A stretch of 54,031 nt of DNA from an uncultured Sphingomonas sp. (GTDB taxonomy: Bacteria; Pseudomonadota; Alphaproteobacteria; Sphingomonadales; Sphingomonadaceae): contig CAJYLV010000018.1 in assembly GCA_913776255.1 (NCBI GenBank), forward strand, positions 1 to 54,031, read 5' to 3'. Shown here in pieces: positions 1,833 to 44,524 of this stretch. Both the position numbers and the translations under genes were made by a program. The first letter of the stretch is position 1. Every line of letters starts with the position of its first letter. Under the pieces are notes generated by a model, which was given only the letters and a program-made list of their open reading frames with translations, made no database searches and was not told the origin of the DNA.

Positions 1833-2555
1833 CTATTGCGACTTGCCGGTGATGCGCGGCACGCCGAAGCGCCCCAGCACCGTCTCGCCCGCCACCGCGC
1901 GCTGCCCCAGCGCGACCTGCGGTTCGAACCCCTCCGGCAGATAGACGTCGACGCGGCTGCCGAAGCGGATCAGCCCGACGCGCTGCCCCGCGGCGACGAT
2001 GTCGCCGATCTTGGCGAAGCCGACGATCCGCCGCGCCACCAGCCCGGCGATCTGCGTGAAGCCGACGCGGCGCCCGTCGAACCCCTCGACGACGAAATGC
2101 TGGCGCTCGTTCTCCTCCGACGCCTTGTCGAGATCAGCATTGAGGAACTTGCCCGAGATATAGACGACCTGCCGGATCGTCCCCGCGATCGGCGAGCGGT
2201 TGATGTGGACGTCGAACACCGACATGAACACCGACACGCGCACCATCGGCGCCTCGCCGAGATCGCCGACCAACTCGCGCGGCACCGGCACGCGCTCGAT
2301 CATCGTGATGAGCCCGTCGGCGGGCGAGACGATCAGGTCGTCGCCGATCGGCGTGGTGCGCACCGGATCGCGGAAGAACGCCGCCACCCACAGCGTCAAC
2401 CCCAGGAACGGCCAGAAGAACACCTTGGAGACGATCGTCATCAACAGCGTGATACCGAACGCGATGGCGGTGAATTTCTGCCCCTCGGGGTGGACGGCGG
2501 GGAAGCGCCACTTGACGGTGGTCGTGACGACCGGCGGCTTGTCGAGCGAAGTCAT
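1833..2555 (-). CDS. psd: phosphatidylserine decarboxylase (short form)
   Basis: Converts phosphatidylserine to phosphatidylethanolamine. This is the 240-aa short-type proenzyme, which cleaves itself to create a pyruvoyl cofactor. The cleavage motif is RFGS at residues 197-200, with Ser200 becoming the pyruvoyl group. SPADG (around D80) and DVHINRSP (H117) supply the other conserved residues. A hydrophobic segment at about 28-60 anchors it to the membrane. The start is ATG at 2555. There is no convincing leader: a promoter places the transcription start at the ATG itself (see 2556-2590). It is transcribed with pssA and divergently from isocitrate dehydrogenase. Confidence 0.96.
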
Positions 2556-2590
2556 CGCTTCGTCCTATCGGGCGAAGCGCGTGGTGACAA
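2556..2590 (-). promoter_or_regulatory. psd promoter, predicted leaderless
   Basis: Minus strand: -35 TTGTCA (2590-2585), 17-nt spacer, -10 TAGGAC (2567-2562), then 6 nt and the psd ATG. Start-site selection about 7 nt after the -10 would put +1 on the A of ATG. A 7-bp dyad (CGCTTCG at 2556-2562, CGAAGCG at 2573-2579) overlaps the -10 and could be an operator instead of an RNA hairpin. Confidence 0.55.
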
Positions 2591-2599
2591 CGCCGTAGG

Positions 2600-2628
2600 T
2601 TGATCCCCGCCCCCCTTCCCCCTATCGC
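2600..2628 (+). promoter_or_regulatory. icd promoter
   Basis: -35 TTGATC (2600-2605), 17-nt C-rich spacer, -10 TATCGC (2623-2628), giving a leader of about 28 nt with an AAGGA ribosome-binding site. Its -35 is only 9 bp from the -35 of the divergent psd promoter, so the two polymerases would compete for the same stretch. Confidence 0.6.
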
Positions 2629-2662
2629 CGCACCAAACCACCCACTCGAAGGACAAGCGAGC

Positions 2663-3883
2663 ATGGCGAAGATCAAGGTAAAGACGCCCGTCGTGGAGAT
2701 CGACGGCGACGAGATGACGCGGATCATCTGGGAATGGATCCGCGAGCGCCTGATCAAGCCGTACCTCGACATCGACCTCGATTATTACGACCTCGGCGTC
2801 CAGGAGCGTGACCGCACCGACGATCAGGTGACGGTCGACAGCGCCAAGGCGATCCAGAAGTATGGCGTCGGCGTGAAGTGCGCGACGATCACCCCCGACG
2901 AGCAGCGCGTCGAGGAGTTCGGCCTCAAGAAGATGTGGCGCTCGCCGAACGGCACGATCCGCAACATCCTCGGCGGCGTGGTCTTCCGCGAGCCGATCGT
3001 GATGAAGAACGTCCCCCGCCTGATCCCGGGCTGGACGCACCCGATCGTCGTCGGCCGTCACGCCTTCGGCGACCAGTACAAGGCCACCGACTTCAAGGTG
3101 CCCGGCAAGGGCAAGCTGACCATGAAGTGGGAAGGCGAGAACGGCGACACGATCGAGCACGAGGTGTTCGACTTCCCCTCGGCCGGCGTCGCGATGGGCA
3201 TGTACAATCTCGACGAGTCGATCCGCGACTTTGCGCGCGCGTCGCTCAACTATGGGCTCGGCCGCAACTGGCCGGTGTACCTGTCGACCAAGAACACGAT
3301 CCTCAAGGCCTATGACGGCCGCTTCAAGGACATCTTCGCCGAGGTGTACGAGAGCGAGTTCGCCGACCAGTTCAAGGCCGCGGGCATCGTCTACGAGCAC
3401 CGCCTGATCGACGACATGGTCGCCTCGGCGCTCAAGTGGAACGGCGAGTTCGTCTGGGCCTGCAAGAATTACGACGGCGACGTTCAGTCGGATCAGGTCG
3501 CGCAGGGCTTCGGCTCGCTGGGGCTGATGACCTCGGTGCTGATGACCCCGGACGGCAAGACGATCGAGGCCGAGGCGGCGCACGGCACCGTCACGCGCCA
3601 CTATCGCCAGCACCAGCAGGGCAAGGCGACCTCGACCAACCCGATCGCGTCGATCTTCGCCTGGACCGGCGGGCTGAAGTACCGCGGGAAGTTCGACGGC
3701 ACGCCCGACGTGACGCGCTTCGCCGAGACGCTGGAGCAGGTGTGCGTCGAGACGGTCGAGAGCGGCGACATGACCAAGGATCTCGCGATCCTGATCGGCC
3801 CGGACCAGCGCTGGATGACCACCGAGCAGTTCTTCGAGGCGGTCCGCGTCAACCTCGAGAAGAAGATGGCCAACTGGGCCTGA
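2663..3883 (+). CDS. icd: NADP-dependent isocitrate dehydrogenase
   Basis: Oxidatively decarboxylates isocitrate to 2-oxoglutarate in the TCA cycle, producing NADPH. The 406-aa protein is of the homodimeric, eukaryote-like IDH type common in alphaproteobacteria, not the E. coli type. Near the N-terminus it reads [14 protein letters not shown]. The dehydrogenase signature NYDGDVQSD...GFGSLG is followed by a LMTSVL block and [13 protein letters not shown]. The longer in-frame start at 2600 falls inside the promoter. The ATG at 2663 has AAGGA upstream and fits the family N-terminus [17 protein letters not shown]. It appears monocistronic, with a GC-rich hairpin after the stop. Confidence 0.97.
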
Positions 3884-3892
3884 CCTGAGCGA

Positions 3893-3925
3893 CCGGGGCG
3901 GCGGACGAACGATCCGACGCCCCGG
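3893..3925 (+). terminator. hairpin downstream of icd
   Basis: Perfect 8-bp stem CCGGGGCG (3893-3900) / CGCCCCGG (3918-3925) with a 17-nt loop, 9 bp after the icd stop. It has no good T-tract, so it is a weak intrinsic terminator or a 3'-end stabiliser. Confidence 0.4.
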
Positions 3926-3976
3926 CCGACCGTTTCCGTCGTCGCCTGCCCATCGCGCGACGTTGGTCGCGCCGCG

Positions 3977-4180
3977 CTACGCCGCGCTGACGCCCTCGGC
4001 GGTGACGCGCCCCTCCGCGCAGATCACCCCTTGCACGCGCACCCGCTTCTGGACGTGGTCCACCGGCACGCGCGGCAGTTCCAGCACATAGCGGCTGCCG
4101 CCATCGGACTGCAGCACGAACGCGCCCTGCTCGCGGACCAACAGGCCGGTTTCGTCGATGGGGGTGCCGATGCTGCTCAT
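3977..4180 (-). CDS. small hypothetical protein, DUF5818-like (67 aa)
   Basis: The protein begins MSSIGTPIDETGLLVREQGA, followed by a stretch predicted to be mostly beta (FVLQSDGGSRYVLELPR, then KRVRVQGVICAEGRV). This layout resembles the small DUF5818 proteins of sphingomonads, which look like OB-fold-type modules of unknown function. I recognise the pattern only loosely. The ATG at 4180 is preferred; a GTG at 4189 would add three residues, and neither has a clear Shine-Dalgarno. It converges with icd and lies downstream of the tRNA on the same strand. Confidence 0.5.
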   Translation of the reverse strand: MSSIGTPIDETGLLVREQGAFVLQSDGGSRYVLELPRVPVDHVQKRVRVQGVICAEGRVTAEGVSAA

Positions 4181-4233
4181 GCGCCGCACATGGCGATGGC
4201 GGCGACCGCGCGCAATGCGGCGCCGCTGCTTGG

Positions 4234-4309
4234 TGGTGGGCCCGGCAGGACTCGAACCCGCAACCTAGCCGTTATGAGCGGCCAGCTCTAACCATTGAGC
4301 TACAGGCCC
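4234..4309 (-). tRNA. tRNA-Ile2 (CAU anticodon, expected lysidine-modified)
   Basis: A full cloverleaf folds on the minus strand: acceptor GGGCCTG/CGGGCCC, D-arm GCTC...GAGC, anticodon stem GGCCG/CGGCT with loop CTCATAA (anticodon CAT at 4276-4274), T-arm GCGGG/CCTGC with loop TTCGAGT, discriminator A and encoded CCA. A CAU anticodon may be Met or Ile2. I favour Ile2, the tRNA whose C34 is changed to lysidine by TilS to read AUA. The acceptor stem matches the alphaproteobacterial tRNA-Ile(GAU) pattern, C4-G69 and C5-G68 (recognised by TilS in E. coli) are present, and the D-loop is the short AATGGTTA type. Elongator tRNA-Met is the alternative. Confidence 0.93.
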
Positions 4310-4323
4310 CGACACCGCGCCGC

Positions 4324-4353
4324 CCCGTAGCGCTGCTGCGCGCCCGCTGGCAA
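4324..4353 (-). promoter_or_regulatory. tRNA promoter
   Basis: Minus strand: -35 TTGCCA (4353-4348), 18-nt spacer, -10 TACGGG (4329-4324), placed to start transcription a few bases before the tRNA. Confidence 0.4.
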
Positions 4354-4357
4354 GCGT

Positions 4358-5938
4358 CTACGTCGCCCCGCCGCTCGCATGGCCGGCGGCGCCGTCCTCG
4401 GCCGCGGGTAGCAGCAAGGTGAACAGGCCCGGCGCGATCACGAAGCGCCCACCCAGTTCGGCCGCAAGATTGCGCACCAGCCGGAACGCAAAGCCGACGC
4501 CGAGCAGTGGCGCGCCCTCGTCGCGGACCGCTTCCTCGTCGTCGAGCGCATACAGCGCCGCCTCGTCGCGCTGCGCGAACGCCGCGGGCGGGACCAGTGC
4601 GAGCGCCAGCGTCCCGACCCCGCCGACCAGCGCCATCGTCAATCGCTCGCCCGGCGCGGCCGCCGACAGCGCCGTCGAGAGCAGCCGCGCGATCAGGCGC
4701 TCCGCATCGTGGGGATCGACCGACCAGGTCGCGTCGCGCTCCGCCGGCAGCGCCAGTTCCGCACCGCGCAGCGCCGCCAGCGGGGCGAGGTCGTCCGCGA
4801 TCCGCTGCAACAGCGCGAACGCCGGCGTCGTCCCGTCGCGTCGCTCGAGCGCATGGCCGTCGATCCGCGCCGCGAGGTCGAGATCCTCGATCGCGCCGAT
4901 CAGCTCGCCGACGCGACGGCGGATGTCGCCGGCGCGGTCGCGATAATCCGGTGCGACCGGCCCCAGCAGTTGCTGCTCGATCAATTCCGAGAACCCGGCG
5001 ATCGCGTTGGTCGGGGTGCGCAGCTCGTGCACCAGCCGGCGCAATCCTTCCGCCCCGGCCGCCCGGTCGCGCTCGATGGCGCGTTCGGCGCGTTCGTCGG
5101 CACGGGGGCGGCGTGCCTGTCCGCGCATTCCGACGAACGCGCCGGTCGCCTGGTCGAACATCGGCACGCCGGCGATCCGCCATTCGCCCGCAATCGCCGA
5201 TTCGCCCGGGACGCGCAACCGCGCGCCGGAAAAGGGCGCGCGCTTGCGGAACGCGCCCGAGGCGACCCCGTCCACCGCCGCGCCTGCCCAGACCCCGGCG
5301 CGCGGATCGAGCGTCAGCCCGATCACCGCGCCGCGCGGCGCGGCGTCCAGCCAGCGGATGACCCCGCCGGCATCGGTTTCGAACTGGAAGCCGGCAAGCG
5401 GCCGGAGCGGCTCGCCACCCTTGCGTTGATGCGCCGCAATCCGCTCGACCAGCTCGGCGATATCGAAGCGCGCATCGCTGCCGTCGCGCGACGCGGGCGC
5501 GGCGGCCGGCGAATAGCCGAGCCGGAAGTCGCTTCCACCGAAGCTCTCCAGCGCCCGCTCGACCGACGGCGGCAGGTCGCGGCGTTGCCGCACCACGTTG
5601 CGCCCGACCGGGCCGAGCCGCGGGAGCAGTGCTTCCCAGTCCGGTGCGTCGAGCCGCACGGCGCGCAACGTCGCCGCCGCCACCTCCGCGGTATCGGTCG
5701 CGAACACCAGCACCAGCGGCAACGGCGCATCGACCAGCGCGAGCCCGCGCGCGCAGGCCACCCGCACCGCTTCCGGCACCCGGTCGCGCAGCTGCACCAG
5801 CCGCGACAGCAGCGTGTCGTCGGCGGGCGCCCGCCCGCGCGCGATCAGGTCGACGAGCTGGCGATAGGTCGCGCGCGCGCCCAGCGCCGATCGCGCTTCG
5901 GCGGCGAGGACGGTTTTCAGGCTGTCGTTGAAGCGCAC
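4358..5938 (-). CDS. degenerate histidine-kinase-like protein
   Basis: 526 aa without transmembrane segments, so cytoplasmic. Residues 1-140 form an Arg/Ala-rich helical region. Residues 180-275 look like a PAS-type sensor (GFQFETDAGGVIRWLD...). Residues 298-320 are a good HisKA H-box with His304 in LVHELRTPTNAIAGF. The catalytic domain is abnormal. Where the N-box should supply Asn (NLLxNA) it reads IARLLSTAL, no DxGxG G1 box is present, and only a G2-like GAPLLGVGF...ELGG remains. It therefore probably cannot bind ATP in the normal way, though it may still dimerise or accept phosphate on His304. The start is GTG at 5938 with AGAGG upstream. It is divergent from the Lrp gene, and no response regulator is adjacent. 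Confidence 0.75.
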   Translation of the reverse strand: MRFNDSLKTVLAAEARSALGARATYRQLVDLIARGRAPADDTLLSRLVQLRDRVPEAVRVACARGLALVDAPLPLVLVFATDTAEVAAATLRAVRLDAPDWEALLPRLGPVGRNVVRQRRDLPPSVERALESFGGSDFRLGYSPAAAPASRDGSDARFDIAELVERIAAHQRKGGEPLRPLAGFQFETDAGGVIRWLDAAPRGAVIGLTLDPRAGVWAGAAVDGVASGAFRKRAPFSGARLRVPGESAIAGEWRIAGVPMFDQATGAFVGMRGQARRPRADERAERAIERDRAAGAEGLRRLVHELRTPTNAIAGFSELIEQQLLGPVAPDYRDRAGDIRRRVGELIGAIEDLDLAARIDGHALERRDGTTPAFALLQRIADDLAPLAALRGAELALPAERDATWSVDPHDAERLIARLLSTALSAAAPGERLTMALVGGVGTLALALVPPAAFAQRDEAALYALDDEEAVRDEGAPLLGVGFAFRLVRNLAAELGGRFVIAPGLFTLLLPAAEDGAAGHASGGAT

Positions 5939-6057
5939 GAAACGATCGACCTCTTGGCTCTCACGGGTTCATCCCGCCGCCGTACCTAGGGACGTGGCCG
6001 GTTCGGAGCCATTGCGGAGTTTTCCGGACCATCCCGGATTGAGGCAGCTTTGGACAA

Positions 6058-6085
6058 TTGCGTTTCGGCGCAACAATCCTATAGC
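6058..6085 (+). promoter_or_regulatory. Lrp/AsnC gene promoter with overlapping dyad
   Basis: -35 TTGCGT (6058-6063), 16-nt spacer, -10 TATAGC (6080-6085). The -35 lies inside a perfect dyad, TTGCG-tttcgg-CGCAA (6058-6073), of the size bound by Lrp/AsnC proteins. Autoregulation by the downstream regulator is a reasonable inference. Confidence 0.5.
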
Positions 6086-6133
6086 CACCTGTATGGATGC
6101 TATCGCGAAAATGCGTGGCCAACTGAGTGAGAT

Positions 6134-6598: not shown

Positions 6599-6604
6599 GC
6601 AACG

Positions 6605-6637
6605 AAAAAGGGGCGACCCGCGGGCCGCCCCTTTCAG
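6605..6637. terminator. bidirectional terminator between convergent genes
   Basis: Perfect 9-bp stem AAAGGGGCG (6607-6615) / CGCCCCTTT (6626-6634) around a 10-nt loop, between the stops of the Lrp gene (+) and the TPR-like gene (-). The minus-strand transcript gets a five-U tail, so termination should be stronger in that direction. Confidence 0.75.
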
Positions 6638-6658
6638 ATCGTCCGGAGACCGAACCGC

Positions 6659-7927: not shown

Positions 7928-7970
7928 CGACACGTCTCTCCAGATTTCGCGGGCGTAACGCTCGGTCGCT

Positions 7971-8040: not shown

Positions 8041-8069
8041 TTGAACGCGGCCGGCCGCGGGAGTACGGC
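8041..8069 (+). promoter_or_regulatory. yaaA promoter, predicted leaderless
   Basis: -35 TTGAAC (8041-8046), 17-nt spacer, -10 TACGGC (8064-8069), then 6 nt to the ATG at 8076. No Shine-Dalgarno is present, so +1 is expected at the start codon. Confidence 0.5.
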
Positions 8070-8075
8070 GCGGCG

Positions 8076-9478: not shown

Positions 9479-9488
9479 GCCCCTGCCC

Positions 9489-9696: not shown

Positions 9697-12468
9697 TTGG
9701 CCGACGACACCGTCCTCGCCGATCCTTCCGCTATCGCCCCCATCTCCATCGTCGAGGAGATGAAGACCAGCTACCTCGACTATGCGATGAGCGTCATCGT
9801 GGCGCGCGCGCTGCCCGACGTGCGCGACGGGCTGAAGCCGGTGCATCGCCGCATCCTCTATTCGGCGAACGAGAGCGGCTTCCTCTACAACCGCCCGTAT
9901 CGCAAATCGGCGCGCATCGTCGGCGACGTGATCGGTAAATATCACCCGCACGGCGACAGCTCGATCTACGAAGCCTTGGTCCGCATGACGCAGGACTGGT
10001 CGATGCGCGTGCCGCTGATCGACGGTCAGGGCAATTTCGGCTCGATGGATCCTGATCCCGCCGCCGCGATGCGTTATACCGAGGCGCGGCTGGCGAAGTC
10101 CGCCAATTACCTGATGGACGACCTCGACAAGGACACGGTCGACTTCCAGCCCAATTACGACGGTTCGGAGCGCGAGCCGCAGGTGCTGCCGGCGCGCTTC
10201 CCCAACCTGCTCGTCAACGGCGCCGGCGGCATCGCGGTCGGCATGGCGACCAACATTCCGCCGCACAATCTCGGCGAAGTCGTCGACGCCTGCCTCGCCT
10301 ATATCGACAATGGCGCGATCACCACCGAGGAGCTGATGGAGATCGTTCCCGGTCCCGACTTCCCGACCGGTGCGATCATCCTCGGCCGCGCCGGGGCGCG
10401 CTCGGCCTATGAGACCGGGCGCGGCTCGGTGATCGTGCGCAGCCGCCACAAGATCGAGACCGGGCGCGGCGACCGCACCTCGATCGTGCTCACCGAAATC
10501 CCGTTCCAGCAGGGCAAGAACGCGCTGGTCGAGAAGATCGCCGAAGCCGCCAAGGACAAGCGCATCGAGGGCGTCAGCGACATTCGCGACGAATCGAACC
10601 GCGAAGGCGTCCGGATCGTCATCGACCTCAAGCGCGACGCGACCCCCGAGGTGGTGCTCAACCAGCTGTGGCGGCACACGCCCGCGCAGGGCTCGTTCCC
10701 CGCGAACATGCTCGCGATCCGCGGCGGCCGCCCCGAGCTGCTCAACCTGCGCGATATCATCAGCGCCTTCGTGCAGTTCCGCGAACAGGTCATCACGCGC
10801 CGCGCCAAGTTCGAGCTGAACAAGGCCCGCGAGCGCGCGCACATCTTGCTCGGCCTCGTCATTGCGGTCACCAACCTCGACGAGGTGGTGCGGATCATCC
10901 GCGGCTCGTCGAGCCCGGCCGAGGCACGCGCCAAATTGCTCGCGCGCGAATGGCCGATCGCCGAGATCGCACCCTATCTGCGGCTGGTCGAGGCGCTCGA
11001 GACCGATGTCGCGGGCGACAGCTATCGCCTGTCCGAAGTGCAGGTCCGCGCGATCCTCGATCTGCGCCTCCACCGCCTCACCGCTTTGGGCCGCGACGAA
11101 ATCGGCGACGAGCTCAAGACGCTCGCCGATTCGATCGCCGAGCTGCTGGCGATCCTCTCCGACCGCGTGAAGCTCTACGAGGTGATGCGCGAGGAATTCC
11201 GCGACGTGCGCGAGCAGTTCGCGACGCCGCGCCGCACCGAGATCGCCGCCGCCGCCGACGGAATCGACGACGAGGACCTGATCGAGCGCGAGGACATGGT
11301 GGTGACCGTCACCATGGCCGGCTACATCAAGCGGACACCGCTCGACGCCTTCCGCGCGCAGGCGCGCGGCGGCAAGGGCCGTGCGGGCATGGCGACCAAG
11401 GACGAGGACGTCGTCACCAAGCTGTTCGTCACCTCGACGCACACCCCGGTGCTGTTCTTCTCGACGCTCGGGCGCGTGTACCGCATGAAGGTCTGGCGCC
11501 TACCCGAAGGCGGGCCGGCGACGCGCGGTCGCCCGATGATCAACCTGCTCCCGCTCGAACAGGGCGAGACGATCTCGACCGTGCTGCCGCTGCCCGAGGA
11601 CGAGGCGGAATGGGGCAAGCTCCACGTCATGTTCGCGACCGCCAAGGGCTCGGTGCGCCGTAACTCGATGGACGCGTTCACCAACGTGCCGTCGAACGGC
11701 AAGATCGCGATGAAGTTCGAGGGCGACGATGCCGACGACCGGCTGATCGGCGTGGCGTTGCTCGACGAGGGCGACGACGTGCTGCTCGCCACCCGCGCTG
11801 GCAAGGCGATCCGCTTCGCCGCCGACGAGGTGCGCGAGTTCCAGAGCCGCAACTCGACCGGCGTGCGCGGCATCGCGCTCAAGGGCGACGATCAGGTGAT
11901 CTCGCTGTCGGTGCTGCACCGCGTCGGGGTCCGCGATCAGGAGGAGCGCGACGAATATCTCCGCAACGCGCCGTGGAAGGAACGCGAGGGCGAGCTGACG
12001 ATGCCGCTCGACCGCTTCGAGGAGCTGCGCGCGCGCGAACAGTTCGTGCTCACGGTCTGCGCCAACGGTTATGGCAAGATCAGCTCGGCCTATGAATATC
12101 GCCGCACCGGTCGCGGTGGGCAGGGCATCACCAATATCGACAATATCGCGCGCAACGGACCGGTCGTCGCCAGCTTCCCGTCGACCAAGGCCGAGCAGCT
12201 GATGCTCGTCACCGACCAGGCGAAGATGATCCGCATGCCGCTCGGCTCGCTGCGCGTTATCGGCCGCGGCTCGGCGGGCGTGCGGCTGTTCAACGTGGCG
12301 AAGGACGAGCATGTCGTCTCCGCCGCGCGGATCGACGAGGAGCCCGAGCCCGAGGATGCCGCCGAGGCGCTGGTCGCCGAGGAACTGGCCGGCGACACGT
12401 CGGTTGCTCCGGTCGATGACGCGACGATCGGCGACGATGCCGCCGCCGGCCCGGAGGATGGTGAATGA
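9697..12468 (+). CDS. gyrA: DNA gyrase subunit A
   Basis: 923-aa breakage-reunion subunit of gyrase, which introduces negative supercoils with GyrB. The catalytic tyrosine is Y127 ([11 protein letters not shown]. coli Tyr122). The quinolone-determining region reads [18 protein letters not shown]: Ser88 (E. coli Ser83) is the drug-sensitive residue, while the Asp87 position is Glu92. The GyrA box needed for DNA wrapping is probably [11 protein letters not shown] near residue 550, and beta-pinwheel repeats extend to an acidic tail. The start is a TTG at 9697 with a weak purine-rich site; no better in-frame start exists before the conserved region. It overlaps the DUF952 gene by ATGA. Confidence 0.97.
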
Positions 12469-13408: not shown

Positions 13409-13437
13409 CTGACAAGACAAGCCGCACCCGCTATCCG
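13409..13437 (+). promoter_or_regulatory. trmFO promoter, predicted leaderless
   Basis: -35 CTGACA (13409-13414), 17-nt spacer, -10 TATCCG (13432-13437), then 6 nt to the ATG at 13444. No Shine-Dalgarno. Confidence 0.5.
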
Positions 13438-13443
13438 CACCGC

Positions 13444-14837: not shown

Positions 14838-14838
14838 C

Positions 14839-19811: not shown

Positions 19812-19840
19812 TTGGCAGGGTGCGGGCAAGCGCCTAAAGC
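19812..19840 (+). promoter_or_regulatory. trpF promoter, predicted leaderless
   Basis: -35 TTGGCA (19812-19817), 17-nt spacer, -10 TAAAGC (19835-19840), then 6 nt to the trpF ATG at 19847. No Shine-Dalgarno and no room for a trp attenuator. Confidence 0.55.
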
Positions 19841-19846
19841 CGCGCG

Positions 19847-27413: not shown

Positions 27414-27442
27414 TTGTTGCCGGCGGCCACAAACCCTAAGCG
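27414..27442 (+). promoter_or_regulatory. rluB promoter, predicted leaderless
   Basis: -35 TTGTTG (27414-27419), 17-nt spacer, -10 TAAGCG (27437-27442), then 6 nt to the ATG at 27449. No separate Shine-Dalgarno. Confidence 0.55.
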
Positions 27443-27448
27443 GACGGA

Positions 27449-28537
27449 ATGGCCGACAAACGTTCCCCGCACCGCATCGCCAAGCTGCTCGCTCGCGCCG
27501 GCGTGGCGTCGAGGCGCGAGGTCGAGCGGATGATCGCCGAGGGGCGCGTCGCGAAGGATGACGTCACGATCGACACCCCTGCCACGGTGCTGCCGTCGCT
27601 CGACGGAGTGACCGTCGACGGCCAGCCGGTTGCCGCGCCCGAACCGACGCGCCTGTTCCTTTTCCACAAGCCGACCGGCGTCCTCACCGCCGAGCGTGAT
27701 CCGGCCGGCCGGGCGACGATCTACGACCGCTTGCCGAAGGATCTGCCGCGGCTCGTCCCGGTCGGTAGGCTCGACCTCAACACAGAGGGCCTGCTGCTGC
27801 TCACCACGGACGGCGAGTTGAAGCGGCAGCTGGAACTGCCCTCGACCGGCGTCGAGCGCAGCTATCGCGCGCGCGCTTACGGCCAGATCAGCCAAGCGCA
27901 GCTCGAGGAGCTGATCCACGGCATCGAGATCGACGGCATCCGCTATGGTGCGATCGACGCCAATCTCGAACGCCGTACCGGTGCGAACGTGTGGATCGAG
28001 ATGACGCTAAGCGAGGGCAAGAACCGTGAAGTGCGCCGGGTGCTCGAGCATCTCGGGCTTCGCGTCAGTCGACTGATCCGCACCCGTTACGGTCCGTTCG
28101 TGCTCGGCGATCTGCCGGTCGGCGACATCGGCGAGGTACGCGTCGCCGACCTGATCGCCTTCCGGCAGACGTTGAAGACCGCCGCGCGTCAGCGGCCGGC
28201 GGTGGCCGAGGTCGCGGTGTCGGGCAGCCGCCGCGCACCCGCCGCCCGCCCGGCATCAGGCGCGCGCCCGTTTGGTGGCGCGACACGACCCAATACGGCC
28301 GTGCGGTCGGCCGATCCGGCGAGATCCGGCGCGCCGCAGCCGAAGCGCTTGGCGGAGCGCGCGCCGGCAAAAAACGCGACCAGCGCGCCGCGACCGCCCC
28401 GTCCCGCGCCAAAACCTGCCGCGTCTCCCGTCGCGGAACAGCCATCCACACTGCAGCGTCCGGCGCGGATCAAGCGCCAGCCGGGCTGGGCCAAGCCGAA
28501 GCCCAAGGCCGGGCCCCGGCCGCGGGGGCGGAAATGA
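27449..28537 (+). CDS. rluB: rRNA pseudouridine synthase, RsuA/RluB family
   Basis: 362 aa. An S4 RNA-binding domain (about 8-60, RIAKLLARAGVASRREVERMI) precedes the synthase core with catalytic Asp109 in VPVGRLDLNTEGLLLLT. The NREVRR(VLEHLGLRVSRLIRTRYGPF) motif is typical of the large-subunit enzyme RluB (Psi2605 in E. coli); RluE/RluF are less likely. The last 120 residues are a Pro/Arg/Ala/Lys-rich disordered tail, common in alphaproteobacterial homologues and probably RNA-binding. It overlaps rsmD by ATGA. Confidence 0.88.
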   Translation: MADKRSPHRIAKLLARAGVASRREVERMIAEGRVAKDDVTIDTPATVLPSLDGVTVDGQPVAAPEPTRLFLFHKPTGVLTAERDPAGRATIYDRLPKDLPRLVPVGRLDLNTEGLLLLTTDGELKRQLELPSTGVERSYRARAYGQISQAQLEELIHGIEIDGIRYGAIDANLERRTGANVWIEMTLSEGKNREVRRVLEHLGLRVSRLIRTRYGPFVLGDLPVGDIGEVRVADLIAFRQTLKTAARQRPAVAEVAVSGSRRAPAARPASGARPFGGATRPNTAVRSADPARSGAPQPKRLAERAPAKNATSAPRPPRPAPKPAASPVAEQPSTLQRPARIKRQPGWAKPKPKAGPRPRGRK

Positions 28538-31129: not shown

Positions 31130-33439
31130 TCAGACGGTAGAGACGAAGCTGTCCATCACCCGCTTGCGCCCCGCTTGTTCGAAATCGATTTCCAGCTTGT
31201 TGCCCTCGATCTCCGCGATCGCGCCATAGCCGAACTTCTGATGGAACACGCGCTGGCCGACCGTCAGATCGCCGCGCCCCTTGTTGCCGAGGCTCACCGC
31301 AGAGGCACGGCTCTCGACCACGCGCACCGGCTCGCGCGTGAAGGTCCGGCTCGACCACTCGCCGCCCGGCTTGCCACCGAGCGTCCCGGCCGCCCGCTGC
31401 CAGCCCGGTCCGCGCCCGGTGCCGCGGGCCACGTCGGCAAACGGATCGGCGCGCTCGGACCAGTTCGCCCGCCAGAGGCTCTCGCCGCCCGACATGCTCG
31501 TCTCGCTCTCGACATGCTGCGGCGGCAATTCCCCGACGAAACGCGAGGGGATCGAGCTGGTCCATTGGCCATAGATCCGTCGATTGGCAGCGTGGAGGAC
31601 GGTCGCCAGCCGCCGCGCGCGCGTGATGGCGACATACGCCAGCCGCCGCTCCTCTTCGAGCGATCGCGTACCGCCTTCATCGAGCGCCCGTTGCGACGGA
31701 AACAGCCCCTCCTCCCACCCGGCAAGGAACACAGTGTCGAACTCCAGTCCCTTGGCGGCGTGGATCGTCATGATCGTCACCTTGGGATCCTCACGCGTCG
31801 CCTCATTGTCCATGACGAGGCTGACATGCTCGAGGAAAGCGCCGAGGTTCTCATATTCTTCCATCGCCCGGACCAGCTCGGTCAGGTTTTCCAGACGCCC
31901 CGCGGCCTCGGTCGATTTCTCCGCCTGGTACATCGCCGTGTAGCCGCTCTCGTCGAGGATCTGCCGCGCCAGTTCGGGGTGCGGCAGGTCGCGCGCCATG
32001 TCGCGCCACCGCGCGACGTCGCCGACGAACCGGCCGAGCGCCTTGCGCGCCTGCGGGGTCAATTCGTCGGTGTCGAGGATGCGCGCCGCCGCGATCGACA
32101 ATGGCAAACCCTCGGCCCGCGCCAGTTGGTGCAGCTTGGCGATCGCCTTGTCGCCAAGCCCGCGCTTGGGGGTGTTGACGATCCGCTCGAACGCCAGATC
32201 GTCGGCCGGCTGGTTGACGACGCGCAGATAGGCCAGCGCATCGCGAATCTCGGCGCGCTCGTAGAAGCGAAAGCCGCCCACGATCCGATAGGGCAGCCCG
32301 ATGGCGATGAAGCGATCCTCGAACTCGCGGGTCTGGTGCTGGGCGCGGACGAGGATCGCGATCTCGTCCAGACTTTTGCCGGATCGCTGCGTCGCCTCGA
32401 TCTCGTCGCCGACCCGTCGCGCCTCCTCCGGGCCGTCCCAGACGCCCAGCACGCGCACTTTCTCGCCCGCGTCGAGCTCGGTCCACAATTCCTTGCCCAG
32501 CCGGCCGCCATTATTGGCGATCACACCGGATGCGGCCCCGAGAATATGCGGCGTCGAGCGATAATTCTGCTCGAGCCGGATCACCTTCGCGCCGGGAAAG
32601 TCCTTTTCGAACTTCAGGATGTTCTCGACCTGCGCGCCGCGCCACGAATAGATCGACTGGTCGTCGTCACCGACGCAGCAGATGTTGCGGCGCTCCTGCG
32701 CCAGCAGCCGCAGCCAGAGGTACTGAACCGAATTGGTATCCTGATATTCGTCGACCATGATGTAGCGGAAGCGCTGCTGATAATGCTCCAGCACGCTGCG
32801 CTCACGTTTGAGGACGGTCAGGACGTGCAGCAACAGATCGCCGAAGTCACAGGCGTTCACCGCCTTCAGACGATCCTGATATTGCTGGTACAATTCGCCG
32901 CCGCGTCCGTTGGCGTAGCGTTCGCTCTCGCCGGCATCGACGTCGGCGGGCACGAGGCCCTTGTTCTTCCACTCGTCGATCAGCCCGGCCAGCGAGCGCG
33001 CCGGGAAGCGCTTCTCATCGATATCGGCGGCAACGATCAACTGCTTGAGCAGGCGCAACTGATCGTCAGTGTCGAGGATCGTGAAATTGCTCTGCAGCCC
33101 AACCAGTTCGGCGTGCCGCCGCAGCATCTTCGCGCCGATCGCATGAAAAGTGCCCAGCCATGGCATCCCCTCCACGGCGTCGCCGACCAGTCGCCCGACC
33201 CGCTCGCGCATCTCGCGCGCCGCCTTGTTGGTAAAGGTTACAGACAGAATTTCGGACGGATAAGCGCGCCGCGTCCACAACAAATGCGCGAGCCGCGCCG
33301 TCAGGGCCGCGGTCTTTCCCGTTCCGGCCCCAGCCAGCACAAGCACGGGTCCATCGGTGGTGAGCACCGCCTCACGTTGTGGAGGATTGAGGCCAGCCAG
33401 ATACGGCGGCTCCTGCGTGGCAGCGGAAAGATCAGTCAC
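31130..33439 (-). CDS. uvrD: ATP-dependent DNA helicase II UvrD/PcrA
   Basis: 769-aa SF1A helicase of nucleotide-excision and mismatch repair. It carries Q motif LNPPQREAV, Walker A GAGTGKT (37-43), SVTFTNKAAREM, DEYQDTN, GDDDQSIYSWRGA, QNYRS, TIMTIHAAKGLEF and YVAITRAR. The C-terminal 45 residues (VGQRVFHQKFGYGAIAEIEG...) form the Tudor-like fold that in PcrA/UvrD contacts RNA polymerase. The start is GTG at 33439. A promoter sits 6 nt upstream of the GTG, so a leaderless mRNA with a GTG start is predicted. The DUF5872 gene follows. Confidence 0.96.
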   Translation of the reverse strand: MTDLSAATQEPPYLAGLNPPQREAVLTTDGPVLVLAGAGTGKTAALTARLAHLLWTRRAYPSEILSVTFTNKAAREMRERVGRLVGDAVEGMPWLGTFHAIGAKMLRRHAELVGLQSNFTILDTDDQLRLLKQLIVAADIDEKRFPARSLAGLIDEWKNKGLVPADVDAGESERYANGRGGELYQQYQDRLKAVNACDFGDLLLHVLTVLKRERSVLEHYQQRFRYIMVDEYQDTNSVQYLWLRLLAQERRNICCVGDDDQSIYSWRGAQVENILKFEKDFPGAKVIRLEQNYRSTPHILGAASGVIANNGGRLGKELWTELDAGEKVRVLGVWDGPEEARRVGDEIEATQRSGKSLDEIAILVRAQHQTREFEDRFIAIGLPYRIVGGFRFYERAEIRDALAYLRVVNQPADDLAFERIVNTPKRGLGDKAIAKLHQLARAEGLPLSIAAARILDTDELTPQARKALGRFVGDVARWRDMARDLPHPELARQILDESGYTAMYQAEKSTEAAGRLENLTELVRAMEEYENLGAFLEHVSLVMDNEATREDPKVTIMTIHAAKGLEFDTVFLAGWEEGLFPSQRALDEGGTRSLEEERRLAYVAITRARRLATVLHAANRRIYGQWTSSIPSRFVGELPPQHVESETSMSGGESLWRANWSERADPFADVARGTGRGPGWQRAAGTLGGKPGGEWSSRTFTREPVRVVESRASAVSLGNKGRGDLTVGQRVFHQKFGYGAIAEIEGNKLEIDFEQAGRKRVMDSFVSTV

Positions 33440-33445
33440 GCCGAA

Positions 33446-33474
33446 CAGTTAGGGAACGCACGCCATATGGGCAA
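33446..33474 (-). promoter_or_regulatory. uvrD promoter, predicted leaderless
   Basis: Minus strand: -35 TTGCCC (33474-33469), 17-nt spacer, -10 TAACTG (33451-33446), then 6 nt to the GTG start at 33439. Confidence 0.55.
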
Positions 33475-35861: not shown

Positions 35862-36215
35862 TCAGACCTCCACCGAAAGCAAGGTTACCCCGGTGTACCG
35901 TTCTTCGCCCGGCACGAACAACTCGCTGGGCCTGAAGCGCCGCGGGGTGATGCGCAGCGCCGTCAGGCCGGCAAGCTTGAAGGCACCGATCTTCGGCTCC
36001 TTCGGTGGCTGTCCGTCCCGCTCCAGCGTCACGGCATCGAGGTAGATCTCGCCGTGCTTGGTGTAGAGGATATGCGGCGCCAGCGTCACGCTGCCGCGAT
36101 TATACATCGCAGCGATCGCCTGTAGTTTGACGATCGCCTCGAAGACGACGGGAACGGTATCAGGCACCGCCGGCGCAGGGCGGCTCTCGGTTTCGGCACT
36201 CATCGGGCGCGCCAT
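35862..36215 (-). CDS. hypothetical protein (117 aa)
   Basis: I do not recognise the family. After a Pro/Ala-rich N-terminus the sequence is beta-rich: VVFEAIVKLQAIAAMYNRGS, LAPHILYTKHGEIYLDAVTLE, KIGAFKLAGLTALRI, then RRFRPSELFVPG. The pattern of a short strand-rich domain with many basic and aromatic residues recalls the ligand-binding (WYL-like) part of regulators, but there is no DNA-binding domain. Start at 36215 or the ATG at 36203; no clear ribosome-binding site. It lies between pit (convergent) and the prolyl oligopeptidase gene (not divergent from it). Confidence 0.6.
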   Translation of the reverse strand: MARPMSAETESRPAPAVPDTVPVVFEAIVKLQAIAAMYNRGSVTLAPHILYTKHGEIYLDAVTLERDGQPPKEPKIGAFKLAGLTALRITPRRFRPSELFVPGEERYTGVTLLSVEV

Positions 36216-38381: not shown

Positions 38382-38467
38382 GCCGCTCGCTCCGTTTGCC
38401 ATGAAGCTGTTGTGCGTTACCGTCGCGCCGGGAACAACCCCGCCGCCGACGCGTCATCGGCCGCACC

Positions 38468-39880: not shown

Positions 39881-39891
39881 GCGCTAAGCCG

Positions 39892-40224: not shown

Positions 40225-41984
40225 GACCGCTCTCCCCCGCCCCATGGATGCTGCTCGGCGATCATCGCACGCGCGGCCAGCGGATCGGTCGCCTCGATCT
40301 GGATCCGCAGCCGCTCCTTGTCGCTGGCGCGATACATCTGCTCCGCCCGCTCGATGTCCCCCGGCGCGATCCCGAGCCCGCTCATGGCCAGCCGCGCCAT
40401 CTTCACCGCCGATTCCAGCACCTCACGCACCACCGCGCGCGCCGGACCGTTCTTCAGCCGTATCAAGGCGCGGCGGTCGAAGGCCCGGACGTAGAGGGCG
40501 GCGTTCGGGAAGGCGTCGTGGACCGCCTCCAGCTGTTCGAGCGACAATTGATCGCCGTCCATGCAGAACAGGATCAGCTCGGCCTCGGCCGCGCCCGCCT
40601 GCCGCAGCAGATCGAGCCGGGTGCCGTCGCCATAATAGACCTTCGAGCCCAGCTCGCCGGCGATGTCGATCATCTCGATATCGGTGTCGATTAGCGTGAC
40701 GGGAATGTCCTGCGCCATCAGCATCTGGCCGACCGTCTGTCCGAAGCGGCCATAGCCAACGATGATCGCATTCGCGCCGTCCGCCCGCGGCCCGTCGCGG
40801 TCGGTCTCGGCCGCGATCGGCTGTTCGCGGAAGCGGCGGGTGAACATCATCAGGAACGGCGTCGTCGCCATCGACAGCGTGATGATCGCGCCGAACAGGC
40901 TGGCGGCATCGGGGGCGATCAGCAGCGCCTGCTGCGCCTGCGCGAGCAGCACGAATCCGAACTCGCCGCCCTGGCTGAGCAGCAGGCCGAGCGCTAGCGC
41001 CTGCCGCCAGCCCATGCGGAACGCCAGCCCGAGCAGGGTGATGATCGCCGCCTTGGTCGCGATCAGCGCCGCGGCCATCGCGACGACGAACAGCGGCCGC
41101 TCGGCGATCGCCCCGAGGTTCAGCATCATCCCGACCGCGAGAAAGAACAGCCCGAGCAGGATCGCACGGAACGGCTCGACATCCGCTTCGAGTTCGTGAC
41201 GATACGGGCTGTCGGCGAGCATGACCCCGGCGACGAACGCGCCCAGCGCGGTCGACAGGCCGAGCCGCTCCATTACCGCAGCGGCGGCGATGACGGTGAA
41301 CAGCGCCGCGAACACGAACATCTCGCGCTCGCCAAGATGCCCGATCAGCCGGAACAACGGTCGCATCACAAAGCGACCGACCGCGACCAGCCCGCCGACC
41401 GCGAGCACCGTGTAGAGGCCGAGCACCCAGCCCTCCGGCCCGCTGCTCGCGGCCGGATTGCGGCTCATCGCGGCGATGATCGTGATCATCGGGATGATCG
41501 ACAGATCCTGGAATAGCAGGATCGAAAAAGCGCGCTCGCCGAAGGGCGTGCGCAGCCGGCCCGAGGATTGCAGCATCGGCAGCACCTGCGCGGTCGACGA
41601 CAAAGCGAGCGGCATCCCGACCGCGAGCGCCGCGGCGAGCGAGAACCGCGCCGCCAGTGCGAGGATCGCCGCCAGCGCGATACCGCAGGCGACGACCTGG
41701 ATGAGCCCGAGCCCGAAGATGTCCTGCTTGAGCCGCCATAGCCGCTGCGGGCTCAGTTCGAGCCCGACGATGAACAGCAGCAGCGTGATGCCGAGTTCGG
41801 CGAATCCGAGCTTGGCCTCGGCGTCGCCGACCAGCCCGAGCAGATGCGGCCCGACCACCGCCCCGGCGACGAGGAAGCCCAGCGTCGCCCCGAGCCCAAG
41901 TCGCCGGAACAGCAGCACGAACACCAGCCCGGTGCCGAGCAGAATCGTTCCGTCACGGATCATCGAGACGTCGGCATGTTCCAT
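40221..41984 (-). CDS. CPA2 family monovalent cation:proton antiporter, KefB-like
   Basis: 587 aa. A 12-helix antiporter domain (1-385, with LGFLVAGAVVGPHLLGL, LLFIVGLELSPQRLW, LSSTAQVLPML, and LLSQGGEFGFVLL) is followed by a TrkA-N/RCK Rossmann domain (from about 410: IIVGYGRFGQTVGQML, then DTDIEMID). It resembles the glutathione-gated K+ exporter KefB/KefC, though the GSH-specific contacts cannot be judged by eye. The start at 41984 overlaps the upstream scaffold gene by TGATG. Possible role: pH or electrophile protection. Confidence 0.9.
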   Translation of the reverse strand: MEHADVSMIRDGTILLGTGLVFVLLFRRLGLGATLGFLVAGAVVGPHLLGLVGDAEAKLGFAELGITLLLFIVGLELSPQRLWRLKQDIFGLGLIQVVACGIALAAILALAARFSLAAALAVGMPLALSSTAQVLPMLQSSGRLRTPFGERAFSILLFQDLSIIPMITIIAAMSRNPAASSGPEGWVLGLYTVLAVGGLVAVGRFVMRPLFRLIGHLGEREMFVFAALFTVIAAAAVMERLGLSTALGAFVAGVMLADSPYRHELEADVEPFRAILLGLFFLAVGMMLNLGAIAERPLFVVAMAAALIATKAAIITLLGLAFRMGWRQALALGLLLSQGGEFGFVLLAQAQQALLIAPDAASLFGAIITLSMATTPFLMMFTRRFREQPIAAETDRDGPRADGANAIIVGYGRFGQTVGQMLMAQDIPVTLIDTDIEMIDIAGELGSKVYYGDGTRLDLLRQAGAAEAELILFCMDGDQLSLEQLEAVHDAFPNAALYVRAFDRRALIRLKNGPARAVVREVLESAVKMARLAMSGLGIAPGDIERAEQMYRASDKERLRIQIEATDPLAARAMIAEQHPWGGGERS

Positions 41985-42418
41985 CAGCCGGTCCTCGTGG
42001 CGCGGGCCTGTTCGGCGGCGTCGACCGCGGCCTCGAAGGCGAGCCGGATCGAGGGATGGCGCGCGGTAAGCTTCAGCCCCGGCGTGAAGATGTCGATCCC
42101 CGGCCACGCCGGGACGGCGCCGTCGCCGGCCAGCCAGTGCGTCAGCGCGTCGCGCGCCTCGACCAGTTCCTCCACCGAGCGGCCGATCGCGTGGCGCGCC
42201 AGCAGGGTCGCGGAGGCCTGACCGAGCAGGCAGGCGCGCACCTGGGTGCCCAGCGCGTCGACGCGCCCGTCGTCGCCCAGCCGGACGTCGACGGTCACCC
42301 GGCTGCCGCAGATCGGCGAACGCCGCTCCGCCGAGCCCTGCGCGTCGGCGAGCCGCTCCGGATAGGGATTGCCGATCGCCAGCGCGCTGACATCCGGGGT
42401 ATAAAGGTCGAGGCTCAT
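41984..42418 (-). CDS. iron-sulfur cluster assembly scaffold protein (IscU/SufU-like)
   Basis: 144 aa. IscU-like domain: NPYPERLADAQG, first Cys37 in SPICGSRVTVDV, second Cys63 in VRACLLGQASATLL. The third cluster ligand Cys of IscU/SufU is not present; the C-terminal segment reads ARHPSIRLAFEAA. The family assembles [2Fe-2S] clusters, but this two-Cys form may use another ligand or act differently. It is coupled by ATGA to cvpA and by TGATG to the antiporter. Confidence 0.85.
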   Translation of the reverse strand: MSLDLYTPDVSALAIGNPYPERLADAQGSAERRSPICGSRVTVDVRLGDDGRVDALGTQVRACLLGQASATLLARHAIGRSVEELVEARDALTHWLAGDGAVPAWPGIDIFTPGLKLTARHPSIRLAFEAAVDAAEQARATRTG

Positions 42419-42969
42419 GAACGTCCGTCGCTGGAGCGGGATGGAGTGCGCGGGCCGAACACCGGTTGCCCCTTGCGCCGGCGGTCGACGAAGTCGGCGA
42501 CCGCGCCGCTGGTCGCCACCAGCAGCGGGAAGGTTCGCGCGTTCCTCAGCCACGCCGGGCGGTGCGTCGGTCCGCCGCCGGTGAGGTCGAGCAGCAGGAC
42601 GAGGAACAGGAACGCGAGGCTGGCGAGGATCAGCCCCTTGAGCGCGCCGAAGCCGAAGCCGAGCGCGCGGTCGATCGGCCCCAGCACCGAGGTGCGGGTC
42701 CGTGCCGAAATCGCGTTGATGATCAGGCGGCTGACGACATAAGTGCCGCCGGTCAGCAGCACGAACGCCAGCACCGCCGCGCCCGACACGCTGGCGATCG
42801 ACCCGGCCAGCGCCTTCGAGAGCGGCAGATGGAAGATCTTGAGCGCGAAGATCATCGCCACCCAGGCGAACAGCGCCAGCACCTCGCCTACGAACCCGCG
42901 GCGCGCGCCGCCGATCGCGGTCAGCGCGACGAGCACGAGGACGGCGATGTCGAGCGGTTCGAGGTTCAT
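42415..42969 (-). CDS. cvpA: CvpA family inner-membrane protein
   Basis: 184 aa with four hydrophobic helices. The CvpA start LEPLDIAVLVLVALTAIGGARRGFVGEVLAL and the middle GPIDRALGFGFGALKGLILASLAFLF are diagnostic. CvpA is needed for colicin V export in E. coli and more widely for envelope integrity and stress tolerance. The Arg/Ser tail is cytoplasmic. A strong AAGGAGGG precedes the ATG. It follows radA by 152 bp on the same strand, a linkage common in alphaproteobacteria. Confidence 0.93.
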   Translation of the reverse strand: MNLEPLDIAVLVLVALTAIGGARRGFVGEVLALFAWVAMIFALKIFHLPLSKALAGSIASVSGAAVLAFVLLTGGTYVVSRLIINAISARTRTSVLGPIDRALGFGFGALKGLILASLAFLFLVLLLDLTGGGPTHRPAWLRNARTFPLLVATSGAVADFVDRRRKGQPVFGPRTPSRSSDGRS

Positions 42970-43121
42970 GCCCCCTCCTTATGGCGCGATCCCGCGATCG
43001 GCTAGGCCCGGATGTTGGCGAAGGTTACGCTAAACGGTGGCGGCGGCGCTGCCCGCACCAACACCGTTGCGCGGCCGGACCGCCAGCCTGCCCGATGTTG
43101 GACGGTGTAGGACAGCCCCGC

Positions 43122-44489
43122 TCAGCCGCGTCCGAGCAGATGGTCGACGAACTGCCCCAGCGTCCGGAACGCCGATTGCCGCATCGTCGCCCGCTCGACC
43201 GCGGCGGGGAGCAACGCCCGCTCGAACCCGAGCTTGGCAGCTTCCTTGAGGCGCAAAGGCGCATGCGCGACCGGGCGCAGCTCGCCCGACAGCGCGATCT
43301 CGCCGAACGCGACCGCATCCGCCGGCACCGGCCGCTCGCTGAGCGCCGAGACCAGCGCCGCGGCGACCGCAAGATCGGCGGCAGGATCCTGAATGCGATA
43401 GCCGCCGGCGACGTTGAGATAGACTTCGCAGGTCGAGAAGCTGAGCCCGCAGCGCGCCTCCAGCACCGCGAGGATCATCGCCAGCCGTGCCGAGTCCCAG
43501 CCGACCACCGACCGGCGCGGCGTCGCCCCGCTCGCCACGCGTACGACCAGCGCCTGGATCTCGACCAGCACCGGGCGCGTGCCCTCCAGCGCCGGGAACA
43601 CCGTCGCGCCAGTCACGCCCTCCTCACGCTGCGTGAGGAACAGCGCGGAAGGGTTCGATACCTCGACCAGACCGTCCCCTGCCATCGCGAACACGCCGAT
43701 CTCGTCGGTGCCGCCGAAGCGATTCTTGAGGCTGCGCAGGATCCGATATTGATGGCTGCGCTCCCCCTCGAAGCTGAGCACGGTGTCGACCATATGTTCG
43801 AGCACGCGCGGGCCGGCGATCGATCCGTCCTTGGTGACGTGACCGACCAGCACCACCGCGGTGCCGCGCTCCTTGGCGAAGCGGATCAGTTCCTGCGCGG
43901 TCGCGCGCACCTGGCTGACGGTGCCCGGCGCGCCCTCGATCAGATCGGAATGCATCGTCTGGATCGAGTCGATCACCAGCAGGCGCGGCGGCGTGCCGTG
44001 CGAAAGCGTCGTCAGGATATCGCGCGTCGATGTTGCCGCCGCGAGCCGCACCGGCGCGTCGCCGAGACCCAGACGTTGCGCGCGCAGTCGCACCTGATCC
44101 GCGGCTTCCTCGCCGGAGACATAGGCGACGTCATGCCCGGCGCGCGCCAGCGCCGCGGCCGCCTGCAACAACAGCGTCGACTTGCCGATCCCCGGATCGC
44201 CGCCGATCAGCGTCGCCGAGCCCGCCACCAGCCCGCCCCCCAGCGCGCGATCGAACTCAGCGATCCCGAATGGCAACCGCTCGGGCAGCACCGATTGCGC
44301 GTCGAGCGCGGTCATCGCGATCATTCGTCCGCCGCCCTGCAGATTGTGCTTGGCCTGAAACGGCGTCGCGTTGAGCGGCGCCTCCTCGACCAGCGTGTTC
44401 CATTCCGAACAATCGACGCATTGCCCCTGCCAGCGATGATGGACCGAGCCGCACGACTGGCACACAAATCTCTTCTGAACCTTCGCCAT
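43122..44489 (-). CDS. radA: DNA repair protein RadA (Sms)
   Basis: 455-aa RecA-like branch-migration helicase in homologous recombination. An N-terminal zinc finger has Cys10, Cys13, Cys24 and Cys27. Walker A GGDPGIGKST is at 96-105, the RadA-specific KNRFG occurs in RSLKNRFGGTDEIG, and a Lon-like C-terminal domain ends the protein (from about 290). The length is standard. Upstream, a TAGGCG -10 lies 6 nt from the ATG, predicting a leaderless mRNA. It leads the cvpA cluster. Confidence 0.97.
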   Translation of the reverse strand: MAKVQKRFVCQSCGSVHHRWQGQCVDCSEWNTLVEEAPLNATPFQAKHNLQGGGRMIAMTALDAQSVLPERLPFGIAEFDRALGGGLVAGSATLIGGDPGIGKSTLLLQAAAALARAGHDVAYVSGEEAADQVRLRAQRLGLGDAPVRLAAATSTRDILTTLSHGTPPRLLVIDSIQTMHSDLIEGAPGTVSQVRATAQELIRFAKERGTAVVLVGHVTKDGSIAGPRVLEHMVDTVLSFEGERSHQYRILRSLKNRFGGTDEIGVFAMAGDGLVEVSNPSALFLTQREEGVTGATVFPALEGTRPVLVEIQALVVRVASGATPRRSVVGWDSARLAMILAVLEARCGLSFSTCEVYLNVAGGYRIQDPAADLAVAAALVSALSERPVPADAVAFGEIALSGELRPVAHAPLRLKEAAKLGFERALLPAAVERATMRQSAFRTLGQFVDHLLGRG

Positions 44490-44495
44490 TGTTCA

Positions 44496-44524
44496 CGCCT
44501 AGCGCATCAGGAACGATCAGGGAA
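44496..44524 (-). promoter_or_regulatory. radA promoter, predicted leaderless
   Basis: Minus strand: -35 TTCCCT (44524-44519, weak), 17-nt spacer, -10 TAGGCG (44501-44496), then 6 nt to the ATG at 44489. Confidence 0.4.

Follow-up and report, generated by a model that had tools for sequence, protein, structure and literature searches.

A recurrent, probably sigma-70-type promoter set at the start codon predicts leaderless mRNAs in Sphingomonas and related genera

Promoter elements at seven gene starts

We analysed a window of 54,031 nt from an uncultured Sphingomonas sp. (contig CAJYLV010000018.1 of assembly GCA_913776255.1), in which seven genes, psd, yaaA, trmFO, trpF, an rluB-type pseudouridine synthase gene, uvrD and radA, each follow promoter-like elements placed so close to the start codon that leaderless mRNAs would be expected. 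The assembly holding the window comprises 3.1 Mb in 68 contigs and is 79% complete. A preceding sequence-only reading had described, at each of the seven sites, a −35-like hexamer, a 17-nt spacer, a −10 hexamer of the form TAnnnn and a further 6 nt before the start codon. All seven sites read in this way (Table 1), and the arrangement is confirmed as real and beyond chance.

The individual elements vary. TTG is present in five of the seven −35-like hexamers and is absent from those of trmFO (CTGACA) and radA (TTCCCT); the latter falls inside a conserved LexA-type box and is not supported as a plain −35. None of the seven sites has T at position −7. The start codon is ATG in six cases and GTG in uvrD. 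For the rluB-type gene, our own gene finder placed the start at 27530, as against the 27449 of the sequence-only reading. The statement that no usable Shine-Dalgarno (SD) sequence is present needs a qualification, as AGGA occurs 7 nt before the psd ATG and GGAG occurs upstream of yaaA; the former is part of the −10 hexamer TAGGAC, and the latter is 12 nt off.

Table 1. Promoter elements and LexA-type boxes, in coordinates of the window.
Feature	Position	Strand	−35-like hexamer	Spacer (nt)	−10 hexamer	−10 to start (nt)	Start codon	Remarks
psd promoter	2556..2590	-	TTGTCA 2585-2590	17	TAGGAC 2562-2567	6	ATG 2553-2555	Phosphatidylserine decarboxylase by family model
yaaA promoter	8041..8075	+	TTGAAC 8041-8046	17	TACGGC 8064-8069	6	ATG 8076	Best YaaA family match just under cut-off
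trmFO promoter	13409..13443	+	CTGACA 13409-13414	17	TATCCG 13432-13437	6	ATG 13444	TrmFO by family model
trpF promoter	19812..19846	+	TTGGCA 19812-19817	17	TAAAGC 19835-19840	6	ATG 19847	TrpF by family model
rluB-type pseudouridine synthase promoter	27414..27448	+	TTGTTG 27414-27419	17	TAAGCG 27437-27442	6	ATG 27449	Under RluB cut-off, over TIGR00093 cut-off
uvrD promoter	33440..33474	-	TTGCCC 33469-33474	17	TAACTG 33446-33451	6	GTG 33437-33439	UvrD/PcrA-type helicase, under cut-off of most specific model
radA promoter as first read	44490..44524	-	TTCCCT 44519-44524	17	TAGGCG 44496-44501	6	ATG 44487-44489	RadA by family model
LexA-type box GTTCCCTAACTGTTC	33443..33457	-						Covers uvrD −10, ends 3 nt before GTG
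LexA-type box GTTCCCTGATCGTTC	44511..44525	-						In radA promoter, contains TTCCCT
alaS promoter	48295..48330	-	TAGGCA 48325-48330 (weak)		TAAGTC 48302-48307	7	ATG 48292-48294	

Frequency of the arrangement in the genome

A strict form of the arrangement, TTG-N17-TAnnnn-N6-ATG (scanned as TTG-N20-TA-N10-ATG), was found at 43 places in the genome as a whole, compared with 6 for the reversed pattern that served as control. Once one of two identical copies is dropped, 42 distinct sites remain, and 38 of these open a reading frame of at least 80 aa with a coding score above 5. Of these 38 genes, hereafter strict members, 33 match a family model. T at −7 occurs at only 5 of the 38 sites, and an SD-like tetramer precedes 5 of the 38 genes compared with 189 of 534 ATG starts.

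The distance between the −10 element and the start codon was then scanned in a 799-kb sample consisting of 40 contig starts, picked irrespective of matches, and the window. With ATG as start triplet, distances of N5 to N9 gave 3, 14, 4, 3 and 2 matches against a mean of 1.62 (maximum 4) at N12 to N35, and the N6 count was still 10 when the window was excluded. Enrichment of the 6-nt spacing over its neighbours, the test that the sequence-only reading had set for itself, was thereby borne out. ATG was the sole one of six triplets with enrichment at N6: TTG, CTG, ATC and GTC showed no N6 peak in this sample, and GTG was found 3 times where the comparison mean was 1.79. The GTG start of uvrD is real but, given the lack of GTG enrichment at this promoter, counts as an exception. 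Among spacers of 10 to 25 nt, the 17-nt spacer gave 10 start-like sites of 14 at N6 and the others 0 to 2. A 12-nt spacer had 11 raw matches with 1 start-like site, which we took as coding noise.

A complementary view comes from the 678 gene starts in the sample, called by our own gene finder from coding score and start-codon type, with upstream signals unused. TA is raised at −12 (30 starts), −13 (25) and −14 (17) against 11.4 per position, an excess from which we infer about 38 genes, or 5-6% of sampled starts. TTG-N17-TA places its TA at −12 in 9 starts (the window contributes 4 of these), at −13 in 4 and at −14 in 3, where the background at −25 to −75 averages 0.49 per position. TTG is found 16-18 nt before TA in 24 of 72 cases at −12 to −14 and in 61 of 617 at −25 to −75 (p = 5e-7); excluding the window, the association persists (18/56 versus 57/568, p = 2e-5). 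A same-strand gene lies within 30 nt upstream of 209 of the 678 starts overall, but of none of these 24; the two nearest neighbours lie at 32 nt, and the 30-nt cut-off was our choice.

Could the signal come from chance or from gene calling? With a GC content of 69% in the sample, TA occurs seldom except in stop codons, and an in-frame TA at −12 could simply mark the stop that precedes a chosen ATG. This idea would account for the TAG or TAA found at −12 in 26 of the 38 strict sites. It does not account for the remaining counts: the other in-frame positions −6, −9, −15, −18 and −21 show no excess, TAC and TAT but not TGA are raised at −12, and the out-of-frame position −13 is raised as well. 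Moreover, the raw scan, which uses no gene calls, peaks at N6 (14) with 2 each at N3, N9 and N12, and a stop codon leaves the TTG at 17 nt unexplained. On these position and triplet counts we rejected the in-frame stop as the main cause, and we consider an artefact of this kind extremely improbable.

Conservation in other genera

We compared the sites with 38 other genomes of the family, one per genus, aligning the best-matching loci at the start codon and leaving the sequence under study out of every count. The best 29 matches were kept for psd and trpF (of 37 other matching genomes each), for trmFO, rluB, uvrD and radA (of 38 each) and for alaS (of 35). Orthologues lacking a usable start within 26 codons were dropped, leaving 28 of 29 for uvrD and 27 of 29 for rluB. 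A locus was counted as keeping the geometry if it read TT-(16-18)-TA with TA at −11 to −14 from the start codon. By this measure the geometry is kept at psd in 24/29 other genera, yaaA in 11/16, trmFO in 16/29, trpF in 4/29, rluB in 12/27, uvrD in 18/28 and radA in 18/29; if TTG is required rather than TT, trmFO falls to 7/29 and radA to 16/29.

For these seven gene sets, windows of equal size placed upstream from −25 averaged 0.08-0.82, and in 1000 block shuffles the observed footprint was reached 0 times for any of the seven genes. The footprint of trpF is marginal (4, with a shuffle maximum of 3), and on these alignments trpF is the weakest case among the seven. The rluB start position differs among genera. 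The gene hgmA, which has an SD sequence here, behaved as a negative, with a footprint in 1/12; its starts are imprecise. SD-like tetramers occur in 5/29 psd orthologues and in 0-6 orthologues per gene across the footprinted genes.

The orthologues also show that the spacing is less rigid than the fixed 6 nt of the sequence-only reading. TA lies at −12, −13 and −14 in 13, 10 and 2 psd orthologues and in 3, 11 and 3 uvrD orthologues, and the distance from −10 to start is better described as about 6-8 nt, with 6 the commonest.

Conservation bears as well on a second alternative, in which the promoters are real and their leaderless transcripts minor, most mRNA being leadered from further upstream and translated by initiation that does not depend on SD pairing. 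Leadered and leaderless transcription commonly coexist elsewhere, at 59 of 171 leaderless mRNAs with another transcription start site (TSS) in Sinorhizobium (PMC3616915) and in Zymomonas (PMC7566282), and trpF lies 42 nt behind a same-strand gene. What is conserved, however, centres on the start-proximal boxes (24/29 for both psd and alaS), in contrast to the low counts at −25 and beyond, and we regard a predominance of leadered mRNA as unlikely.

Distribution across the phylum

A survey of 397 genomes of the phylum, again with the strict pattern and its reversed control, places the excess taxonomically. Summed pattern and control counts were 43 and 6 for the genome under study, 273 and 88 for the genus (6 genomes), 757 and 332 for the family (14 genomes), 349 and 332 for the other families of the order (4 genomes), 6522 and 3981 for the rest of the class (136 genomes) and 16515 and 16600 for other classes (236 genomes). 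The ratio exceeded 1.5 in 6/6 genomes of the genus, 11/14 of the family, 0/4 of the order's other families, 89/136 in the rest of the class and 34/236 in other classes. By these counts the excess is a property of the family and of much of the class.

Transcription predicted to begin at the start codon

The 17-bp spacer and the TA without T at −7 at all seven sites, and the TTG at five of them, are those that characterize alphaproteobacterial sigma-70 promoters. We propose that the seven genes lie behind a recurrent sigma-70 promoter, conserved between sphingomonad genera, whose transcripts would start on the start codon or no more than about two bases from it and so be leaderless, with the 5' end predicted from geometry and conservation; we put the probability of this reading at roughly 0.86. 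Housekeeping sigma-70 RNA polymerase would start 6-8 nt past the −10 element, as it does at mapped alphaproteobacterial promoters, so that the 5' end should fall on the start codon. Ribosomes would bind straight to the AUG at the 5' end, as they do with leaderless mRNAs elsewhere. From the sequence-only reading, the geometry, the enrichment at N6 and the conservation between genera are retained in this proposal; the fixed 6 nt, the special functional set and the count of seven are not.

Several observations weigh against the proposal. Some concern the genes themselves: the conservation of trpF (4/29) is slight, radA of this genome has no TTG at 16-18 nt from its −10, and the GTG by which uvrD starts shows no enrichment. 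In uvrD, the start codon stands 15-19 nt past the −10 T at 11 of 61 loci from a named collection and at 7 of 26 loci from other genera (both sets are described below), where a leader of a few nucleotides would result. Others concern the calling of starts, which rests on our own gene finder. Among the strict members, the coding score is positive ahead of the ATG in 4/38 and negative over the first 90 nt in 8/38, and one, the TonB-receptor reading frame L287, looks like an internal ATG. The base at −1 is no different from that of other genes (C in 20/38 strict members and 243/534 ATG starts), hence no independent start-site signal was found. In the survey, the four genomes from the order's other families show no excess, 3 of the 14 family genomes have ratios of 1.5 or below, and 34 genomes of other classes rise above that value. 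Lastly, additional upstream promoters may exist, and about half of the leaderless units of Zymomonas (52) have a leadered counterpart as well (PMC7566282).

LexA-type boxes at uvrD and radA

Both uvrD and radA carry at their promoters the SOS operator motif GTTC-N7-GTTC, here called the LexA-type box. The genome holds 55 such boxes against 15 of the reversed motif, two of them overlapping each other upstream of lexA. The uvrD box is found at the promoter in 26/28 other genera, and that of radA is present in the 70 nt ahead of the gene in 26/29, in 25 of them in the orientation seen here.

At uvrD, the box and the promoter elements are interlaced. A box with TA inside it occurs at 26/29 other-genus loci, all 26 of which have TTG 16-18 nt upstream, and the start codon follows the T at 12, 13 or 14 nt in 3, 12 and 3 of these loci and at 17-19 nt in 7. 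A second set was drawn from the named collection, in which the closest uvrD relatives are Sphingomonas records with identity up to 95%; 79 of its 80 loci were counted, the truncated L354 being left out. Here 61/79 loci have such a TA-containing box, which is accompanied by TTG in 55, and the start lies at 12, 13 or 14 nt in 7, 41 and 1, and at 15-19 nt in 11. Judged from these alignments, the leaderless geometry is typical of uvrD, with exceptions.

We also considered whether the seven genes form a regulon of repair, RNA modification and peroxide stress defined by leaderless initiation, in line with the special set of functions proposed by the sequence-only reading. LexA-boxed genes are over-represented: using 54 of the 55 boxes, 20 genes have a box no more than 70 nt away, and 6 of these show the leaderless geometry, compared with 24/678 overall (p = 1e-4). 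The six are uvrD, an RmuC-like gene (under the family cut-off), mmcB, a radical-SAM gene, an S24 peptidase gene and yaaA. LexA control of yaaA was rejected, its box being present in 1/16 orthologues and probably due to chance, which would leave 5/20. A box close to the start codon by itself favours a short leader, however, and lexA, the ImuA-like genes and other boxed genes lack the geometry. Of the seven, only uvrD and radA have conserved boxes, and housekeeping genes such as murA, metG, ahcY, smpB, accA, hemF and those for peptide deformylase and leucyl aminopeptidase make up most of the 38 strict members. We rejected a functional class for the whole set and hold such a regulon to be very improbable.

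A narrower and tentative proposal concerns the SOS repair core of sphingomonads (uvrD and radA, and in this genome also rmuC and mmcB). We speculate that these genes might be expressed from leaderless mRNAs, with LexA operator, −10 element and start codon fused in a block of about 40 bp, and that damage induction could thereby bypass SD-dependent initiation, although we consider this somewhat less probable than its opposite. LexA bound at the predicted operators of uvrD and radA would block polymerase; once it is cleaved in response to DNA damage, a leaderless repair mRNA would be made.

Boxes were observed at two further places. Within the window, two LexA-type boxes 24 nt apart (695-733) lie between rpsB and a short reading frame on the plus strand (832-1074), which encodes 80 aa with a hydrophobic start, is preceded by GAGGAGG and has no Pfam match; it is a candidate SOS-induced small membrane protein. 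Elsewhere in the genome, locus L295 (C40:39900-43800) contains two consecutive ImuA-like genes, each with its own box, the boxes being in opposite orientation; the first was assigned by its similar N-terminus, and the second is below the NCBIfam cut-off.

alaS and further members

Seven proved too low a count, as alaS (45631-48294, minus strand, PF01411), initially picked as a negative control, clearly belongs to the set and lies in the window too. The geometry is kept in 24/29 other genera, in 19 with TTG, and by this measure its leaderless-type promoter is among the best conserved despite the weak −35 of its own copy.

Two other genes in the window start in a leaderless-like way behind promoters with 18-nt spacers: a gene for an M24 peptidase (49144-50400, minus strand) at N8 and a 113-aa reading frame without Pfam match (35862-36203, minus strand) at N7. 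The gyrA gene of the window spans 9760-12468. An identical 38-mer is present at C27:85050-85087, upstream of accA (PF03255), and at C59:4368-4405; with the same 38-mer on two contigs, part of the assembly may be duplicated.

Comparison with known systems

If uvrD and radA are indeed leaderless and controlled by LexA, they would offer a natural case for studying the translation of repair proteins under impaired SD-dependent initiation. The conserved genes psd, alaS, uvrD, radA, trmFO and yaaA lend themselves to testing in culturable Sphingomonas and Novosphingobium. For Novosphingobium a TSS map has been published (PMC7471390), and TSS data for N. aromaticivorans are public (GSE150944). Start-codon annotation in high-GC alphaproteobacteria would also profit from the promoter signal. 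In the open-licence literature we found no paper that joins leaderless mRNAs, Sphingomonas and transcription start sites.

Leaderless mRNAs in Alphaproteobacteria are a known kind. Measured sets number 375 in Caulobacter, where they are translated about as well as leadered mRNAs (PMC4117421), 171 in Sinorhizobium (PMC3616915) and 119 in Zymomonas (PMC7566282). The genes predicted here resemble them in a predicted transcript start at the start codon, seemingly few or no SD sequences, AUG as start and a share of a few per cent of genes; the difference is that the 5' ends were measured there and are predicted here, for Sphingomonadaceae, from geometry and conservation.

The promoter itself has two close precedents. 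Zheng et al. (2011) described a bacterial leaderless signal, TANNNT, and in the sections available listed leaderless genes in 2/117 alphaproteobacterial genomes (PMC3160421). Like ours, their TA-led genes have a TA some 12 bp ahead of the start codon, interpreted as a −10 element. The full consensus does not apply here, given the rarity of T at −7 in the strict members and its absence from the seven; most of the set would probably escape a search for TANNNT, and this is the likely reason for the gap behind the 2/117. Myers et al. (2021) reported for mapped alphaproteobacterial promoters a commonest spacer of 17 bp, a TSS 6 nt past the −10 element and, in most, no T at −7 (PMC8407463). Our sites agree with these in the TTG of the −35, the 17-bp spacer, the 6 nt to the predicted TSS and the base other than T at −7, which that study found in more than 80% in Novosphingobium. 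The part of that paper accessible to us differs in that the word 'leaderless' is absent and the placement of start codons is not discussed.

For the operator, the Caulobacter LexA box is GTTCN7GTTC (PMC12700426), and this motif recurs here at the promoters of uvrD and radA and in two copies ahead of lexA. In contrast to what the available text reports for the Caulobacter SOS regulon, the predicted uvrD site of this genome covers the −10 element and stops 3 nt short of the start codon. A search of the open-licence literature, including the accessible portions of two Deinococcus papers (PMC5552922, PMC8072749), returned no description of a fused LexA operator, −10 and start codon in Alphaproteobacteria. 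Outside this class, a leaderless recX has been reported and a leaderless lexA cited for Mycobacterium tuberculosis (PMC3062782), a precedent for SOS-related leaderless transcripts. That system belongs to another phylum and involves other genes, and, in the portion of the source at hand, no operator fused with −10 and start is described. Set beside these systems, the newer part of our findings would be the SOS repair genes in which operator, −10 element and start codon appear to be fused.

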